Shown here: positions 12,628 to 19,547 of the stretch, piece after piece
Numbering within the stretch: position 1 is the stretch's first letter
How the letters are laid out: each line of letters starts with the position of its first letter
DNA from: Planctomycetia bacterium
GTDB lineage: Bacteria > Planctomycetota > UBA1135 > UBA2386
Reading direction: 5' to 3'
Assembly (NCBI GenBank): GCA_005776475.1
Contig: SXPB01000042.1
Location: 1 to 47,133 of the forward strand
Length of the DNA stretch: 47,133 bases
Notes under the pieces: model-generated
Database searches by the model: none
Told to the model about the DNA's origin: nothing
The model's input: the letters and a program-made list of their open reading frames with translations, nothing else
Program-made: the position numbers and the translations under genes

Positions 12628-13851
12628 TCACGCCCACAGATTCGCGGAGGCATGCTCGCCGCCGAGCACCGCCTTGCTGTCGATGCCGAGCCAGACGAGC
12701 AGGTCGCGATAGACCGAACGGAAGTCGACGGTCGCGATCGGATCGCCGTCGTCGAGCCTGGCCAGATCGGGCGGCGTGCCGACGACGCCGCCGCGCGCGC
12801 CACCGAGCAGCACGAACGCCGGCGCCGCGGCGCCGTGGTCGGTGCCTTGGCTGGCGTTCTCGGCAGCGCGGCGCCCGAACTCGCTGTGCACGAGGATCGC
12901 AACCTTGTCGCCGTGCCCGTGCGCTTCGAGGTCGGTGACGAACGCGGCGAGCGCCGCGTCGAGTTCTGCCAACAGCCCGGCGTGCGTCGGCAACTGCCGC
13001 GCGTGCGTGTCGAAGCCGGTGAAGCCCAGGTGCAGGAGCCGCGTGCCAAAACCGGAGACCACCAGTTGCGCCGCCAGCCGCAGTTGGCGACCGAGGCCAC
13101 TGTCGGGGTAGTCCGCCGTCGGCTGGTAACGCGCGAGTGCGCTCTCGAGGCCACCGGCGAGCTGCACGGCCCGTTGCGACATCGCTGCCGCGAACGCCCG
13201 CAGATCGTCAGCGGACGGCGTCGCCGCACCTGCCACCACTGCTCGCGTCGGCGACGTTGCCGCCAGCGCTTCGCGCCGCTGCAGCGCCAACCACTGGAAG
13301 TCCTCGACGCGGCGCAAGCTCGGCACGCGCACGCGGTGGCCCTTCAGCAGCAGCGGCACTTCCAGCCCGCCGATCGCCGCCGCCGGCACGCCGTCGCCGG
13401 CATTCGCCTGCGCGAGCGCATCGGCCGCGCGGCCGAGCCAGCCGGTGGTCGCCGCCGCCACGCGCTGGTGCGCCGGATCGCCGACGTGCCAGATGTCGCG
13501 ACTGCGGAAGTGCGAACGGTCCGGGTTCGCATAACCGACGCCGTGCAGCACCGTCGCCTTGCCGGCGCCCACCATGGCATGCAGTTGCGCGAGTGCGGGA
13601 TGCAGGCGCGTGCCGTCGGCCAGCTCGCGCGCCCCATTCTGCACCGCCGACAACTTCGGCCGCAGCCGCGTGTAGGCCGCGTCGCCGCTCGGGATCACCG
13701 TGTTGAGGCCGTCGTTGCCGCCGACCAGTTCCAGGACCAGCAAGGTGCGCTCGCCGGCCGTCGGCAACCACGCGCCCGCACCACGCACGCTCCACCACAG
13801 CGGGATCGCCGTGGCGCACTGCAGGAACGAGCGGCGGTTGAGTCGGGTCAT
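12628..13851 (-). CDS. DUF1501 family protein, Tat-exported
   Basis: A 407-residue protein starting at the ATG at 13851, which opens a twin-arginine signal (MTRLNRRSFLQCATAIPLWW). The mature protein carries the family's marks: LLVLELVGGNDGLNTVIP near the start, GFTGFDTHARQ in the middle, and HSEFGRRAAENASQGTDHGA near the end, inside an alkaline-phosphatase-like fold. It is the last gene of a three-gene operon, seven bases after the DUF1800 gene. This DUF1800-DUF1501 pairing is common in planctomycetes and related bacteria; the biochemical role is not established. Confidence 0.93.
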   Translation of the reverse strand: MTRLNRRSFLQCATAIPLWWSVRGAGAWLPTAGERTLLVLELVGGNDGLNTVIPSGDAAYTRLRPKLSAVQNGARELADGTRLHPALAQLHAMVGAGKATVLHGVGYANPDRSHFRSRDIWHVGDPAHQRVAAATTGWLGRAADALAQANAGDGVPAAAIGGLEVPLLLKGHRVRVPSLRRVEDFQWLALQRREALAATSPTRAVVAGAATPSADDLRAFAAAMSQRAVQLAGGLESALARYQPTADYPDSGLGRQLRLAAQLVVSGFGTRLLHLGFTGFDTHARQLPTHAGLLAELDAALAAFVTDLEAHGHGDKVAILVHSEFGRRAAENASQGTDHGAAAPAFVLLGGARGGVVGTPPDLARLDDGDPIATVDFRSVYRDLLVWLGIDSKAVLGGEHASANLWA

Positions 13852-13858
13852 CGTGGCC

Positions 13859-15175
13859 TCACGCGAGTTGGTATTCGGGCAAGCATGCTGCAGCGTGCAG
13901 CACCGCGTGCGCCGCCGCCCTGGTGTCGGCACCGTGCGCGGCGGCGACGTCGGCGAGCCGCTCCGCATCTTCCTTGCGCAGCGCCCCGTCGAGCAGCAGC
14001 AGCGCGGCGATGCGCGCGAACTCGGCCGGCTTCTCGGCGCGTTTGAAGGAACGTTCGGGATCCGGCGCCAGCTTGCCGGTGCGCCCGCTGAGCAGATCGG
14101 CGACGAAGTTCACGCGCAGCAACCACGACGCCGGCGACAGCCACGCCCGTTCGCCATGCCAGCCTTCGACCGACGGCGGTTCGCACCAGGTCTCGCCGAG
14201 CGACGCCATCGTCGCGGCGAGTTCGACCGGGGCCGCGCGCGCGCCGAGCGCCCGCACGAAACCGAGCACGAAATCGGCCGGGCTCTTCACCTTCGCCCGC
14301 AGCGCCCGCGGTGCGAAGAACAGCTTGCTGGCCAACAATGTCGTCAACGTCGCGCGCACGTCGCGGCCGGTCTGCTCGTAGACCGCGGCCAACGCATCGA
14401 TCTCGGCCCGCTCCGGTTCGGGATGCACGAAGAAGCGCAGCCAGCGATCGGCGAGGAACTCGGCCGACTCGCGCCGCGCGACCGTGGCCGCGACCACGTC
14501 GTCGCCGGTCAGCCGGCCACTCTTGCCGAACAGGACCTTGTCGCCATCGTCGTGCAGGCGCGCGTGGAAGAAGAACTGGCCATCGCGCACATGCCAGCCG
14601 GTGAAGCAGCGCGCCGCTTCGCGGATGTCGGCTTCGCTGTAGTTGCCGCGTCCCAGCGCGAACAACTCGAACAGCTCGCGCGCGAAGTTCTCGTTCGGCT
14701 TCGCCTTGGTGTTGACGTCGTTGTCGAGCCAGCGCAGCAGCGCCGGATCGCGGCACAGCGCGGCCAGCAGCTCGTCGAAGCGCGCGAGTCCGAGTCGATC
14801 GAACGTCGCCAGTTGCAGCGCCATCGCGCGCGGATCGTTCAGCTTCGTGTTGCTCGTCGCGAAGTGGCCGTGCCAGAAGTAGCTCACCCGCTGCGTCAGC
14901 GGCTGCTGCGCGTTCTGTGCCAGCCACACGCGGAAGGCGCGCACGCGCTCGATGTCGCCGAACGCGATCGCGTCCTGCAGCAGCGTCTCGTCGGGCGGTG
15001 CTGGCGTCGCAACCCCGGCAAGCTGTGCGATCGCCGCGGTGACGCCGGCCTGTTCGAGCTGCCGTCGCTGCGTCAACGAGCCGCCAAACCCGGCGCGGCG
15101 CAGCAGGTGCCCGACCTTGACCAGGTCGAAGGGGTCCGTTGCCGTCGGTTGCCAGGGTGTGAGCAGATCGTTCAT
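13859..15175 (-). CDS. DUF1800 domain-containing protein
   Basis: A 438-residue protein; the ATG at 15175 overlaps the stop of the upstream gene (ATGA), which fixes the start. Family features are plain: VKVGHLLRRAGFGGS at residues ~18-32, RVSYFWHGHFATSNTKLNDP, NENFARELFELFALGRGNYS, EAARCFTGWH, and near the end CEPPSVEGWHGERAWLSPAS. No signal peptide is visible, as is usual for the family. It works, in some still unknown way, with the DUF1501 protein encoded directly downstream. The upstream overlapping gene is probably part of the same function. Confidence 0.93.
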   Translation of the reverse strand: MNDLLTPWQPTATDPFDLVKVGHLLRRAGFGGSLTQRRQLEQAGVTAAIAQLAGVATPAPPDETLLQDAIAFGDIERVRAFRVWLAQNAQQPLTQRVSYFWHGHFATSNTKLNDPRAMALQLATFDRLGLARFDELLAALCRDPALLRWLDNDVNTKAKPNENFARELFELFALGRGNYSEADIREAARCFTGWHVRDGQFFFHARLHDDGDKVLFGKSGRLTGDDVVAATVARRESAEFLADRWLRFFVHPEPERAEIDALAAVYEQTGRDVRATLTTLLASKLFFAPRALRAKVKSPADFVLGFVRALGARAAPVELAATMASLGETWCEPPSVEGWHGERAWLSPASWLLRVNFVADLLSGRTGKLAPDPERSFKRAEKPAEFARIAALLLLDGALRKEDAERLADVAAAHGADTRAAAHAVLHAAACLPEYQLA

Positions 15176-16767
15176 CGCGCCCGCTCCACGCTGAGCTCCA
15201 CCGTGGTCGTCGTCGCCGCACACTGCACCGCGAACGTCACTTCGTGCAGCGCGTTGGCGACGATGTCGAGCACGTCGAAGAACTGCGTTGCGGTGGCCGG
15301 TTCCTCGCCTTCGTCGAGCACGCGCCCGAGTTCGAACACCGGTCGGCTGGCAGCGATCGCGGCGCCGATCGCCGGACCACGCAACACGAGGCGGTCGCCC
15401 ATGGGTTCCGTTGGCGTCGTGCCCGCTTGCCGCACGGCCGCGAGGGCCGCCATCGCGGCGTCGTAGGTGCTGGCGAGCACCGCGTGGCCGTTCTCGCACC
15501 ACAGCGTCGGCGACAGTCCCTGCTCGATGGGGGGCGCACCGGGACCACGCCACGGCAGCGGCTCGCCGACGAGCCCGCGGCCCGCTTCGCTGCGACGCAG
15601 GCGCAGTGGAAAGGGCGACTGGCCCCGCTGCGAGCGTTCGGTGTTCGCGATCAGCCCGAACGCCTCGGCAACGCGGAACAGCACCTTCTCCGCCTTCGGA
15701 TCGTGGATGCGCGCCACCAGCGCAAGGCCCGGCAACTGCAACCGCGACGGCGGTCCGTCCACCGGCGGCGTGATCGGCAACAGCAGCAGCGTGAACGGTT
15801 CGCCCAGGCCGCCGACCAGGTCGTCGACGAATGACGAGTGGGGGCCATCGATGGCGTCGGCGATCGACAGGAAGCCCTGCACGGAGAGCACCTCGGCGGG
15901 TTTCAGCAATCGCTCCGGTTGCTGCAGCAGCGTGCGCAGGCTGCGATCCAGGCGGAGCGACGCGAGCCCGTCGGCCGGCAGCGGCACTTCCGTGGCCTGG
16001 CCGGCGGCGGGCAACATCGCCGACAGCGGCGTCGTGCGCACCGAGTTCGCCGTGGTCGCCGTGACCACGAGCCGGTCGCCGCCGCGCACCGCGAACGTGA
16101 CCATCGCTGCGTCCGTCACCACGGGCGCGAACGGCAACAGCAGGAACTTCGCGCCGGCTTCGAGCGACGCGAACGTCGGCGCCTTGTTGCCGAGGCCGCG
16201 CCGGATCGCCGCCACGTCGATCGCCCCGCGCATCGCTGCGGCGGGACCGAAATCGATGTCGGCCCAGCGGCCCTTTGCCCGGGCCACCCGCGCGGCGGTC
16301 GCGGCGACGAGTTGCTGGTCAGCGCTGAGCACCAGCACGCCATCGACGACCTGCCGCGGCAGCTTGCCGGCGAACTTCGTGCACCAACGCTCCGTGGCCG
16401 GCACGTCGTGCGGTCGCAGCAGCAGGACGGCTTGTGGTTTCCGGCCGTCTGGAACCAGCGCCAGCACGGCCCCGCCGCCCGAAACTTGCGTCGCGAACGC
16501 CTCCGGATCGCCATCGACCGCGATCCACATCGCGGCGAGCCCGGTCCAGGCGGCGACACCCATGCGTTCCTTCAACCCCGGCGGAATGCCGCCCACTGCC
16601 TGCAGCAGGCTGCGGGTCGCCGCCACCGGATCGGCCATCTCGACGACGACGATCGCTTCCTCCGGAACTGCGGCCCGCAAGCCGGGCTCCTGACCTCGTG
16701 CCGAAGCCACCGGCAACCAGCCGGCGATGGCGAGCAGCAACGGCGACAAGGCGGGAAGGTCGTGCAT
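15172..16767 (-). CDS. Secreted protein of unknown function, first gene of DUF1800-DUF1501 operon
   Basis: A 531-residue protein. The ATG at 16767 begins a signal peptide (MHDLPALSPLLLAIAGWLPV, cleavage near ARGQ). The mature part opens VPEEAIVVVEMADPVAATRS, a style seen in planctomycete proteins that resemble DUF3352 (long alpha/beta proteins beginning 'lP.dt...v.v.d'). Later parts include AAVLALVPD-like strands and EPFTLLLLPITPP. I see no catalytic motif. It is translationally coupled to the DUF1800 gene by a four-base overlap, so it is probably a periplasmic companion of that pair. Confidence 0.6.
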   Translation of the reverse strand: MHDLPALSPLLLAIAGWLPVASARGQEPGLRAAVPEEAIVVVEMADPVAATRSLLQAVGGIPPGLKERMGVAAWTGLAAMWIAVDGDPEAFATQVSGGGAVLALVPDGRKPQAVLLLRPHDVPATERWCTKFAGKLPRQVVDGVLVLSADQQLVAATAARVARAKGRWADIDFGPAAAMRGAIDVAAIRRGLGNKAPTFASLEAGAKFLLLPFAPVVTDAAMVTFAVRGGDRLVVTATTANSVRTTPLSAMLPAAGQATEVPLPADGLASLRLDRSLRTLLQQPERLLKPAEVLSVQGFLSIADAIDGPHSSFVDDLVGGLGEPFTLLLLPITPPVDGPPSRLQLPGLALVARIHDPKAEKVLFRVAEAFGLIANTERSQRGQSPFPLRLRRSEAGRGLVGEPLPWRGPGAPPIEQGLSPTLWCENGHAVLASTYDAAMAALAAVRQAGTTPTEPMGDRLVLRGPAIGAAIAASRPVFELGRVLDEGEEPATATQFFDVLDIVANALHEVTFAVQCAATTTTVELSVERAR

Positions 16768-16928: not shown

Positions 16929-17957
16929 TCAGTACTCGCGCCGTTCGGCCGGCTTCGCGGGCGCCAGGGCAACCTCGATGGCCTTCTCGAGTTCGTCCGG
17001 CTTGAAGCCGAACGGGCCGCGCGCGCCGGCATAGGCGATCTTGCCGTCCTTGCCGATCAGGTAGAGCCGGTCCGGGTGCGAGGCATAGGCCTTGCTCACC
17101 GCGTCGTCGACCTGGTCGAGCAGCGCCGGCATCGCAAAACCGATCTCGGCGACGAACTTCTTGGCAACGTCGCGGCGCTCGGCGTTCGTGACCGGATCTT
17201 CCACCAGGGTTTTGGTGCTCGGGGACGCGCCGTCGATCGGGTGGGCCTCACGGCAATACACGAACAGGAACTCGACGCGGTCGCCGAACTTGGTGTGCAG
17301 GCTCTTCAGCTGACCAGCTGAAGCGACGAACGGGCCTCAAGTACAACTGCCGAAGATCAGCGCCACGGGTTTGTTGCCGCGGAAGCTCGACAGCTTGACC
17401 TTCTTCTCGGCGTCGCTGACCAGCGTCAGTTCGAAGTCCGGTGCCGCGGTGCCGGCCTGCGGCCCGGTGCTCCGGTTGCGATCGCCGCCGCCGTGCCGCG
17501 GGGTGCTGCTCTCGACCTGCCAATCCGCCGCAGTCAGCACGCCGTCCTGGTTGCGATCGAGGCGGGTGAAGGTCGCGGCGTCGCGCGCGTACTCCTGCTT
17601 GCTGACTTCGCCGTTCTTGTCGGCGTCGTACTTCTCGGCCAGGAACTTGAAGGCCTGCTCGCCGCCGCCGTCGCGTCCGCCGCCTTGGCCGCGACCGCCG
17701 CGCGCAGGGGTGTTGGCGGGCATGGCCGCCATCTCTTCCTTGCTGACGATGCCGTCGCCGTCCTTGTCGGCAGCGACGAGGCGCGTCCACATGCGCTCGT
17801 CGGTGACCTCGTCCTTGCTGAGCTTGCCGTCCTTGTTGGCATCGAAGCGCTCGAGCATGCGCGCGGTGCGATCGGCAGGTGGGCCGCCGCCCTGGGCCGG
17901 GGCCATGGTGGCGAGAAGCAACGCGGTAACGCCAGTGCCGAGCAGGAACGTGTGCAT
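16929..17957 (-). CDS. EF-hand / iodothyronine-deiodinase-like selenoprotein
   Basis: Read through the TGA at 17337-17339 as selenocysteine, this is 342 residues. Signal peptide 1-22 (MHTFLLGTGVTALLLATMAP); EF-hand loops at residues 39-50, 64-75, 111-122 and 134-145 (for example DKDGDGIVSKEE); then a thioredoxin-like domain from ~172. The active site reads IFGSCT-U207-GPF, matching the deiodinase signature FGSCT-U-PPF, and after the TGA the same frame continues FLFVYCREAHPIDG, another deiodinase hallmark. It ends KPDELEKAIEVALAP. Likely a periplasmic calcium-binding thiol/selenol oxidoreductase; real deiodination is not implied. If TGA were a stop, both halves would be incomplete. The ATG at 17957 was chosen for the signal peptide. 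Confidence 0.9.
17304..17323 (-). promoter_or_regulatory. Candidate bacterial SECIS element (deiodinase-like gene)
   Basis: On the coding strand, 13 bases after the TGA, an uninterrupted eight-base-pair stem (CTTCAGCT paired with AGCTGAAG) closes a GGTC tetraloop. The first loop G lies 22 bases after the TGA. Bacterial SECIS hairpins sit inside the coding sequence just after the UGA, with a G near the start of the apical loop to bind SelB; the E. coli fdhF loop also contains GGUC. The sequence is coding, so the perfect symmetry is notable. Confidence 0.8.
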
Positions 17958-18074: not shown

Positions 18075-19442
18075 TCAGTCGCCGCCGCCGTTCCGCCCAC
18101 CACCACCACCGCCCCGCCCGCCGCCCATCAGGCCCGACAGTCCGGCGGCTGGCACCACTTCGCCAAGCTCGCGCTGCAGGAAGTTCTTGAACTCCGCTCC
18201 ATCGCCGCCGCGCACCACCTTGGCCGCGGCTTCGAGCCACGCCTTCGTGTCCAGCGCCTCTTCGCGCGCCGCGGCCTCTTCGAGCGTCAAGGCGAACTCC
18301 GCATCGCGGCGTGAGGCGAGCACGAACGCCGCCGTCGATCGCACCTTGGACGACGGATCGCGCAGTGCAGAACGCAGGCCTTCCTGCACCTTCGCCTTGT
18401 CGTCGACCTGGGACAGCGCCAGCAACGCTTGCGCGCGCACTTCAACATTCGGCTCCTTCGCCATCAGCTTGTCGATCTGCGCCAGGGTCTCCTTCTGCGC
18501 GGGGCCACTGCTCGCCATCGCTCGCAGCAGGCGACCGCGCACCTTGTCGTCCTTCTCCAGCTTGTATTGCTTGGCCAGCGCCGCGAAGGCCTTGGGCTCG
18601 GCGATGCGTTCGAGTGCGCCGGCAGCGGCGAAACGAACGGACTCATCGCGGTTGGTCAGATAGCCGCCGATCACGGTGTGGTAGGCCTTCGGCGAGATCA
18701 TGCCCATCGTGTCGAGCGCGCCTGTGACCCAGTTCGCCTGCAGCCCCTTCAAGGTGGAGTCAATGAAGCCGATCGCATCGGGATGGTCGCTCCTCATCAG
18801 CAGCTCGATCTCCGCCAGGTTGCCGAACGCACCGCGGCGGGACTTCCTGACTTCCTTGAGCGCCTCGGCCACCTCTTCCTTGGTCGGCGGCTTGCCATTC
18901 TCGCCACGTTCCACCGCGCCGAAGCTGAGCCGCGTCGGTGCGCGTGCGGCCGTGCTCAGTTCCCACGCGAACTTGGGATCGACCTTCCTGATCGCGTCCA
19001 CCCAGGCCCATTCCAGCTCGCCCTTGGTGATGCGGTACGAAACGGCGCTCAACACGGTGCCGTCCGGGCCGACGAACACATGCTGCGGCGCGATGACGTC
19101 CTCGCCCGGACCGATCTTGAGCACCTGCAGCCGCGCCTGCTGCTCGGCGGCCTGATGCTGGGCGGGCGTCACCCCGGGCACCCGGGGTTCGGTCGCGATC
19201 GAACAGAACACATTGACCGAGAACTGCGACAGCTTGCCGAGGACCGGGTCCTTGTAGTGGTCCGCGACCATCTCGTCGTTGGCGCGTTCCCCGGCGAGGT
19301 TGAAGGCGAACAGGACGACCTTGTTCTCGGCCTTGGCAACCTGCATCGCCTCATCGAAGCGCGGGGTCCAGCGGATCTGGGCTACCGCGGGCGTCAGGAG
19401 GGAGGTGATGGCTACGACTGCGGCCAGGGAACGTGCTTGCAT
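18075..19442 (-). CDS. Secreted protein with thioredoxin-like N-domain and HEAT repeats
   Basis: A 455-residue protein. The ATG at 19442 opens a signal peptide (MQARSLAAVVAITSLLTPAV). Residues ~25-160 resemble the thioredoxin fold used in planctomycete redox-like proteins (RFDEAMQVAKAENKVVLFAF, later PQHVFVGPDGTVLS), but the CxxC position holds AGER and is not redox active. From ~230 onward HEAT-type helices are visible (SVRFAAAGALERIAEPKAF, VRAQALLALSQVDDKAKV, KVRSTAAFVLASRRDAEF), suiting protein binding. The tail is glycine-rich. It lies 117 bases upstream of, and in line with, the deiodinase-like gene, so the two may act together. Confidence 0.75.
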   Translation of the reverse strand: MQARSLAAVVAITSLLTPAVAQIRWTPRFDEAMQVAKAENKVVLFAFNLAGERANDEMVADHYKDPVLGKLSQFSVNVFCSIATEPRVPGVTPAQHQAAEQQARLQVLKIGPGEDVIAPQHVFVGPDGTVLSAVSYRITKGELEWAWVDAIRKVDPKFAWELSTAARAPTRLSFGAVERGENGKPPTKEEVAEALKEVRKSRRGAFGNLAEIELLMRSDHPDAIGFIDSTLKGLQANWVTGALDTMGMISPKAYHTVIGGYLTNRDESVRFAAAGALERIAEPKAFAALAKQYKLEKDDKVRGRLLRAMASSGPAQKETLAQIDKLMAKEPNVEVRAQALLALSQVDDKAKVQEGLRSALRDPSSKVRSTAAFVLASRRDAEFALTLEEAAAREEALDTKAWLEAAAKVVRGGDGAEFKNFLQRELGEVVPAAGLSGLMGGGRGGGGGGRNGGGD

Positions 19443-19547
19443 GGTGATTGGCGCCGGAAGTCGGCGCCCCTGTCTTGGTCCGGATAACGGACGGGGACAG
19501 TGCGAATCACCTTGTGACAAGATGCTGGCAACGACCCGGCCGCGGCC

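Follow-up and report, generated by a model that had tools for sequence, protein, structure and literature searches.

A complete gene for a 342-residue protein, in which EF-hand loops precede a deiodinase-like thioredoxin-fold domain, was found on the minus strand of the window (the whole stretch of 47,133 nucleotides of planctomycete DNA analysed here), and its in-frame TGA at 17339-17337 is, judged by sequence, a selenocysteine (Sec) codon. The protein adds a well-supported new case to a fusion type already known, and the cysteine two residues before its Sec is a modest clade-specific feature. The family is common in Planctomycetota, and its host range is wider than the relevant passages of the literature state.

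Gene, domain architecture and known relatives

Translation of the minus strand from 17957 to 16929 with TGA read as U gives 342 residues before the stop codon (TGA). Residue U207 lies at 17339-17337, the motifs FGSCT-U-GPF and VYCREAHPIDG are present, and the start methionine lines up with the start methionine of the relatives in the alignment. The initial annotation had placed the gene at 16929-17957 and the Sec at residue 207, both of which were right, and the strand (minus) is added here. A plus-strand reading of 16929-17957 was rejected, as it gives no sensible protein. The features of the gene are as follows.

16929..17957, minus: EF-hand deiodinase-like selenoprotein gene, complete, 342 aa (ATG 17957-17955, TGA stop 16931-16929)
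17892..17957, minus: signal-peptide-like N terminus, residues 1-22, MHTFLLGTGVTALLLATMAPAQ (sequence inspection)
17808..17843, minus: EF-hand loop 1, residues 39-50, DANKDGKLSKDE (Pfam and loop inspection)
17733..17768, minus: EF-hand loop 2, residues 64-75, DKDGDGIVSKEE (Pfam and loop inspection)
17592..17627, minus: EF-hand loop 3, residues 111-122, DADKNGEVSKQE (forms with loop 4 the pair common to most relatives)
17523..17558, minus: EF-hand loop 4, residues 134-145, DRNQDGVLTAAD (pairs with loop 3)
16974..17459, minus: deiodinase-like thioredoxin-fold domain, residues 167-328 (PF00837, phmmer, Foldseek)
17337..17339, minus: in-frame TGA, putative Sec207 in FGSCTUGPF (translation and TGA conservation in relatives)
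17304..17323, minus: candidate bacterial SECIS hairpin, CUUCAGCU-GGUC-AGCUGAAG (covariation, codon-aware null, fold)

The Pfam profile T4_deiodinase (PF00837) matches residues 167-328 (6.9e-28, 98 bits against a gathering threshold of 27), and EF-hand_5 (PF13202; 9.9e-17, 60 bits against 25.9) and EF-hand_7 (PF13499; 2.3e-11, 44.3 bits against 30) were also found. These matches, with an in-frame TGA at the same place in relatives, bear out the earlier proposal that EF-hands, a deiodinase-like fold and Sec occur in one protein. The signal peptide proposed at the same time translates into probable export, as indicated by the signal-peptide-like residues 1-22 and by a lipobox (LLAGC, LVGC) at the corresponding position in several relatives. 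Directly upstream, a HEAT-repeat protein is encoded at 18075-19520 (minus), the N terminus of which looks thioredoxin-like by eye, without Pfam support. Genes with DUF1501 and DUF1800 (Pfam) adjoin each other at 12628-15553 (minus), a gene pair frequent in planctomycetes. Within about 4 kb, no conserved neighbour was found among 80 named relatives, so genomic context is of no help in naming a partner or substrate.

The fusion had been thought undescribed; however, a 2021 study of GOS marine metagenomes had already presented, as a new fusion form, a deiodinase-like selenoprotein that carries an EF-hand domain (Pfam13499; PMC9402790), one NCBIfam model spans both parts, and the architecture is widespread. 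The 2021 protein is microbial and has the same two-part architecture, and the passage concerned consists of one sentence and one figure panel, with no host assignment in its text; the planctomycete protein, by comparison, comes from a binned genome, has four EF loops and a proximal Cys, and is backed by evidence for a SECIS and the Sec machinery. The NCBIfam model, NF038285 (deiodinase_rel), aligns to the second EF-hand pair with profile positions 37-88 and to the deiodinase domain with 173-344. The score is 222.6 bits, below the model's curated cut-off of 250, which is also missed by all seven relatives that were scored (fusions, PDZ forms and paralogues). Bacterial deiodinase-like selenoproteins with a bacterial SECIS, in Sec and Cys forms, were described from the Sargasso Sea in 2005 (PMC1088965); they share PF00837 and the bacterial SECIS with the protein described here, and the passages on them make no mention of an EF-hand fusion. 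The representative of that family has a UxxC motif (review PMC9312934), whereas the planctomycete protein lacks UxxC and has CxU instead. The ResA/TlpA-type proteins, also exported thioredoxin folds and the next-best fold matches, differ in having CxxC, where the present protein has Sec with no partner Cys at +3. The literature search found no relevant paper connecting deiodinase-like proteins with Planctomycetes, and the biological functions of deiodinase-like proteins are described as largely unknown in the part of a 2026 review that treats them (PMC13188914).

Catalytic domain and proposed chemistry

Deiodinases are the closest solved structures to the enzyme domain, by sequence (phmmer; mouse Dio3 3.7e-21, Dio2 4.3e-13) as well as by fold. 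The AlphaFold2 model on alignment A1 has a mean pLDDT of 80.5, most of the deiodinase domain exceeding 90, and its best Foldseek match in the PDB is Dio3 (4tr3; E 2.2e-13, TMt 0.79, rmsd 2.1), followed by Dio2 (9h48) and then by ResA-like proteins and by peroxiredoxins, among them the 1-Cys type AhpE. A relay of Ser, Thr, Tyr, Glu and two His has been assigned for Dio2/Dio3 (PMC11592359). Residues S204, T206, U207, Y234, E237 and H239 are the equivalents of Dio2 Ser127, Thr129, Sec130, Tyr157, Glu160 and His162, and R297 is that of the substrate clamp Arg275 of Dio3; the relay Ser, Thr, Tyr, Glu and first His are invariant in alignment A1. The likeness to vertebrate DIO1/DIO3 thus includes the thioredoxin fold, FGSCTU with its proximal Cys, the Tyr/Glu/His relay and the clamp Arg. 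The differences are a sequence identity to Dio3 of 30% in the fold alignment and the presence of EF-hands and a signal peptide in place of the membrane anchor and linker of DIO1/DIO3. In the comparison with Dio2/Dio3, the second His of the relay (Dio2 His182, Dio3 His219) and the loop-D Trp (Dio3 Trp207) were found to have no equivalent.

Because of these two missing residues, thyroid-hormone-type substrates are unlikely; vertebrate-type deiodinase activity is not claimed, one relay His being absent, and bacteria are not expected to contain thyroid hormones (PMC1088965). The protein appears, from its residues, to resemble deiodinases in chemistry while lacking one feature of the thyroid-hormone enzymes that was looked for, and reductive chemistry on organohalides or peroxides would be the likeliest class of reaction.

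Here we propose that SelB and Sec-tRNA(Sec) would decode the UGA as Sec, guided by the GGUC hairpin downstream, and that folding of the protein would take place outside the cytoplasm, where the two EF-hand pairs would bind up to four Ca2+. The Sec207 selenolate, assisted by Ser204, Thr206, Tyr234, Glu237 and His239, may then attack a small substrate, either oxidised or halogenated, to give a selenenyl intermediate, which Cys205 could resolve as a selenenyl-sulfide, by analogy with Cys124 of human DIO1, and a thiol system would afterwards reduce the Cys205-Sec207 selenenyl-sulfide. This account as a whole, of an exported EF-hand deiodinase-like selenoprotein with SelB/SECIS decoding, Cys205 resolution and structural Ca2+, is considered reasonably probable. 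A role closer to that of peroxiredoxins, namely mainly the reduction of peroxides outside the cytoplasm instead of organohalides, is the next candidate and a possible one, although the less probable. The Redoxin and AhpC-TSA profiles of Pfam also match the protein, ResA-like proteins and AhpE rank after the deiodinases in the fold search, and Dio catalysis itself is termed peroxiredoxin-like in the title of a reference cited in PMC11592359; however, deiodinases are the best matches by both sequence and fold, and the relay Y234, E237 and H239 with the clamp R297 are deiodinase features.

The Cys205-Thr-Sec207 of the protein is a CxU with the same arrangement as in human DIO1, where a bond between Cys124 and residue 126 is required for re-reduction by glutathione (PMC9141512). 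In most relatives the proximal position, two before Sec, is Tyr (FGSYTUPPF in 63 of the 94 distinct relatives), so that resolution by Cys205 is not a family-wide mechanism. The proximal Cys is found in 13 relatives, which form one clade with one change on the tree (bootstrap/SH-aLRT 97/85); this suggests that the Cys was gained independently in bacteria, which is uncertain because the branch to the vertebrate outgroup is very long. Cys235 accompanies Cys205 in 10 of the 13 proximal-Cys rows, a coupling that was set aside since all these rows belong to one clade. The clade consists of bacterial DIO1/3-like CxU proteins with no membrane anchor, and may serve as a test ground for the resolving-Cys mechanism and for bacterial deiodinase chemistry. 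The Gly that follows Sec, singled out by the initial annotation as a departure from UPPF, turns out to be a recurrent variant: the position changes about five times on the tree, and a second clade mostly has Gly there (UGPF/UGPY).

EF-hands and calcium

The Ca2+ ligands are intact in all four loops by sequence inspection. At least one EF loop, found with a loose loop pattern, lies ahead of the enzyme domain in 88 of 93 relatives, a proportion biased upward because the relatives were ranked by similarity to an EF-hand-bearing query. The pair nearest the enzyme domain is common to most relatives and the first pair occurs elsewhere only in close relatives, the number of loops ranging from one to six. 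Other arrangements were also found: in L033 (G019:C14) a PDZ domain replaces the EF-hands ahead of the Sec deiodinase-like domain; in L045 and L098 (Pirellulaceae) EF-hand loops flank that domain on both sides; and L024 (G006:C70; also L063) joins EF-hands, a Sec deiodinase-like domain and a PHB-depolymerase-like esterase in one 700-residue protein.

Outside the cytoplasm, Ca2+ is normally high and steady. Since Ca2+ is abundant there, the number of EF-hands varies and catalytic domains without EF-hands exist, calcium would more likely be structural, stabilising or positioning the domains, than a switch of activity. The calcium-controlled redox activity put forward in the initial annotation found no direct support, given this abundance of external Ca2+. 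An on/off switch of the selenoenzyme by Ca2+ bound to the EF-hands is unlikely: it would fit the ligands kept in all four loops and the EF pair with the linker EYxRGxxxFxxLDRDxDG that adjoins the enzyme domain in many relatives, but in an apparently exported protein the EF-hands would stay loaded, their number differs from relative to relative, and the same catalytic domain is found in relatives that lack EF-hands or have PDZ in their place. Still more doubtful is a bolder scheme, to which we give little credence, in which external Ca2+ or a lanthanide, sensed by the EF-hands, gates a Sec-dependent dehalogenase outside the planctomycete cytoplasm, the independently evolved resolving Cys of the clade making it the bacterial counterpart of DIO1/DIO3.

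Decoding of the in-frame TGA

The genome is a draft metagenome-assembled genome (MAG), 75.65% complete, and contains all the components of the Sec machinery that the initial annotation had proposed to look for (selA, selB, selC and selD). These include SelB (profile search; 6.5e-105, 351.8 bits, above the cut-off), a tRNA-Sec (75.5 bits; reported by ARAGORN as tRNA-SeC, anticodon tca), SelD (357.7 bits; L009, G000:C8:27713-28630) and SelA, which is present as two complementary pieces (L007, L008), both at contig ends, with profile positions 175-454 at the end of G000:C8 and 1-174 at the start of G000:C238. The split gene suggests that contigs C8 and C238 adjoin. The SelD itself is a selenoprotein, having an in-frame TGA in SGSGUAAKLPPG. 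In the order, SelA was found in 141 of 151 genomes, and for this reason the use of Sec is regarded as the rule in this planctomycete order.

Searching with the joined protein recovered many relatives with an in-frame TGA and few with Cys, and independent assemblies of relatives likewise have TGA at that site. A 76% identical relative has a single in-frame TGA, in the corresponding position. Matches were found in 15 of 34 genomes of the same family, and those that span the active site all carry one TGA except G020:C11, a Cys form (FASYTC). Order-wide, 65 of 151 genomes have a match at E <= 1e-20; among the matches listed, six are without TGA, namely the G020:C11 Cys form and five incomplete matches, most of which miss the active site or lie at contig ends. 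An active-site pattern applied to all loci pooled gave 94 distinct relatives, of which 92 have TGA and two have Cys, the latter being from Isosphaeraceae/Planctomycetales (FGNFTCGPF). Downstream of the TGA, three pairs of relatives give pN/pS values of 0.30, 0.34 and 0.33, indicating purifying selection. The conservation of the TGA and the purifying selection past it therefore make sequencing error, decay or plain termination very unlikely. An artefact, a nonsense mutation or a reassignment of TGA in a variant code, for which the draft, incomplete state of the genome could speak, is given practically no weight, as the same TGA recurs across many independent assemblies of relatives, selection goes on downstream of it, the genome has Sec machinery and the gene itself ends with TGA.

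Downstream of the UGA, a hairpin of 8 bp with a GGUC loop, the stem of which begins 13 nt and the loop 21 nt after the UGA, is the candidate bacterial SECIS. In 15 relatives, 93.3% of the hairpin cells are paired and four of the eight pairs have changed on both sides; none of 500 shuffles attained the covariation score (0.463), and every slid register is far worse. Because the region is coding, random draws of synonymous codons were used as a codon-aware null, in which only 0.02% of draws matched the 8/8 pairs of the gene itself (P = 0.0002), and over 92 relatives the mean number of pairs (of 8) is 6.12 against 3.69 +/- 0.12 for the null. GGUC is found at the loop position in 66 of the 92. The folding energy (MFE) of the hairpin is ordinary (z = -0.15), and since this score is not significant, covariation and the codon-aware null took its place. 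In a scan of the selenoprotein gene no Rfam model matches the hairpin, and RF00031 (SECIS_1) gave no match over the whole genome, a negative that carries no information since it did not match the controls either.

In Planctomycetota the family is large and almost always uses Sec, and annotation that reads TGA only as a stop would truncate its genes at the UGA. A second deiodinase-like Sec gene of the genome, L037 (G000:C79:70-540), has GGFTUPPF, no EF-hands, a long C-terminal region and a similar GGUC hairpin, and genes like it are also present in G010 and G007.
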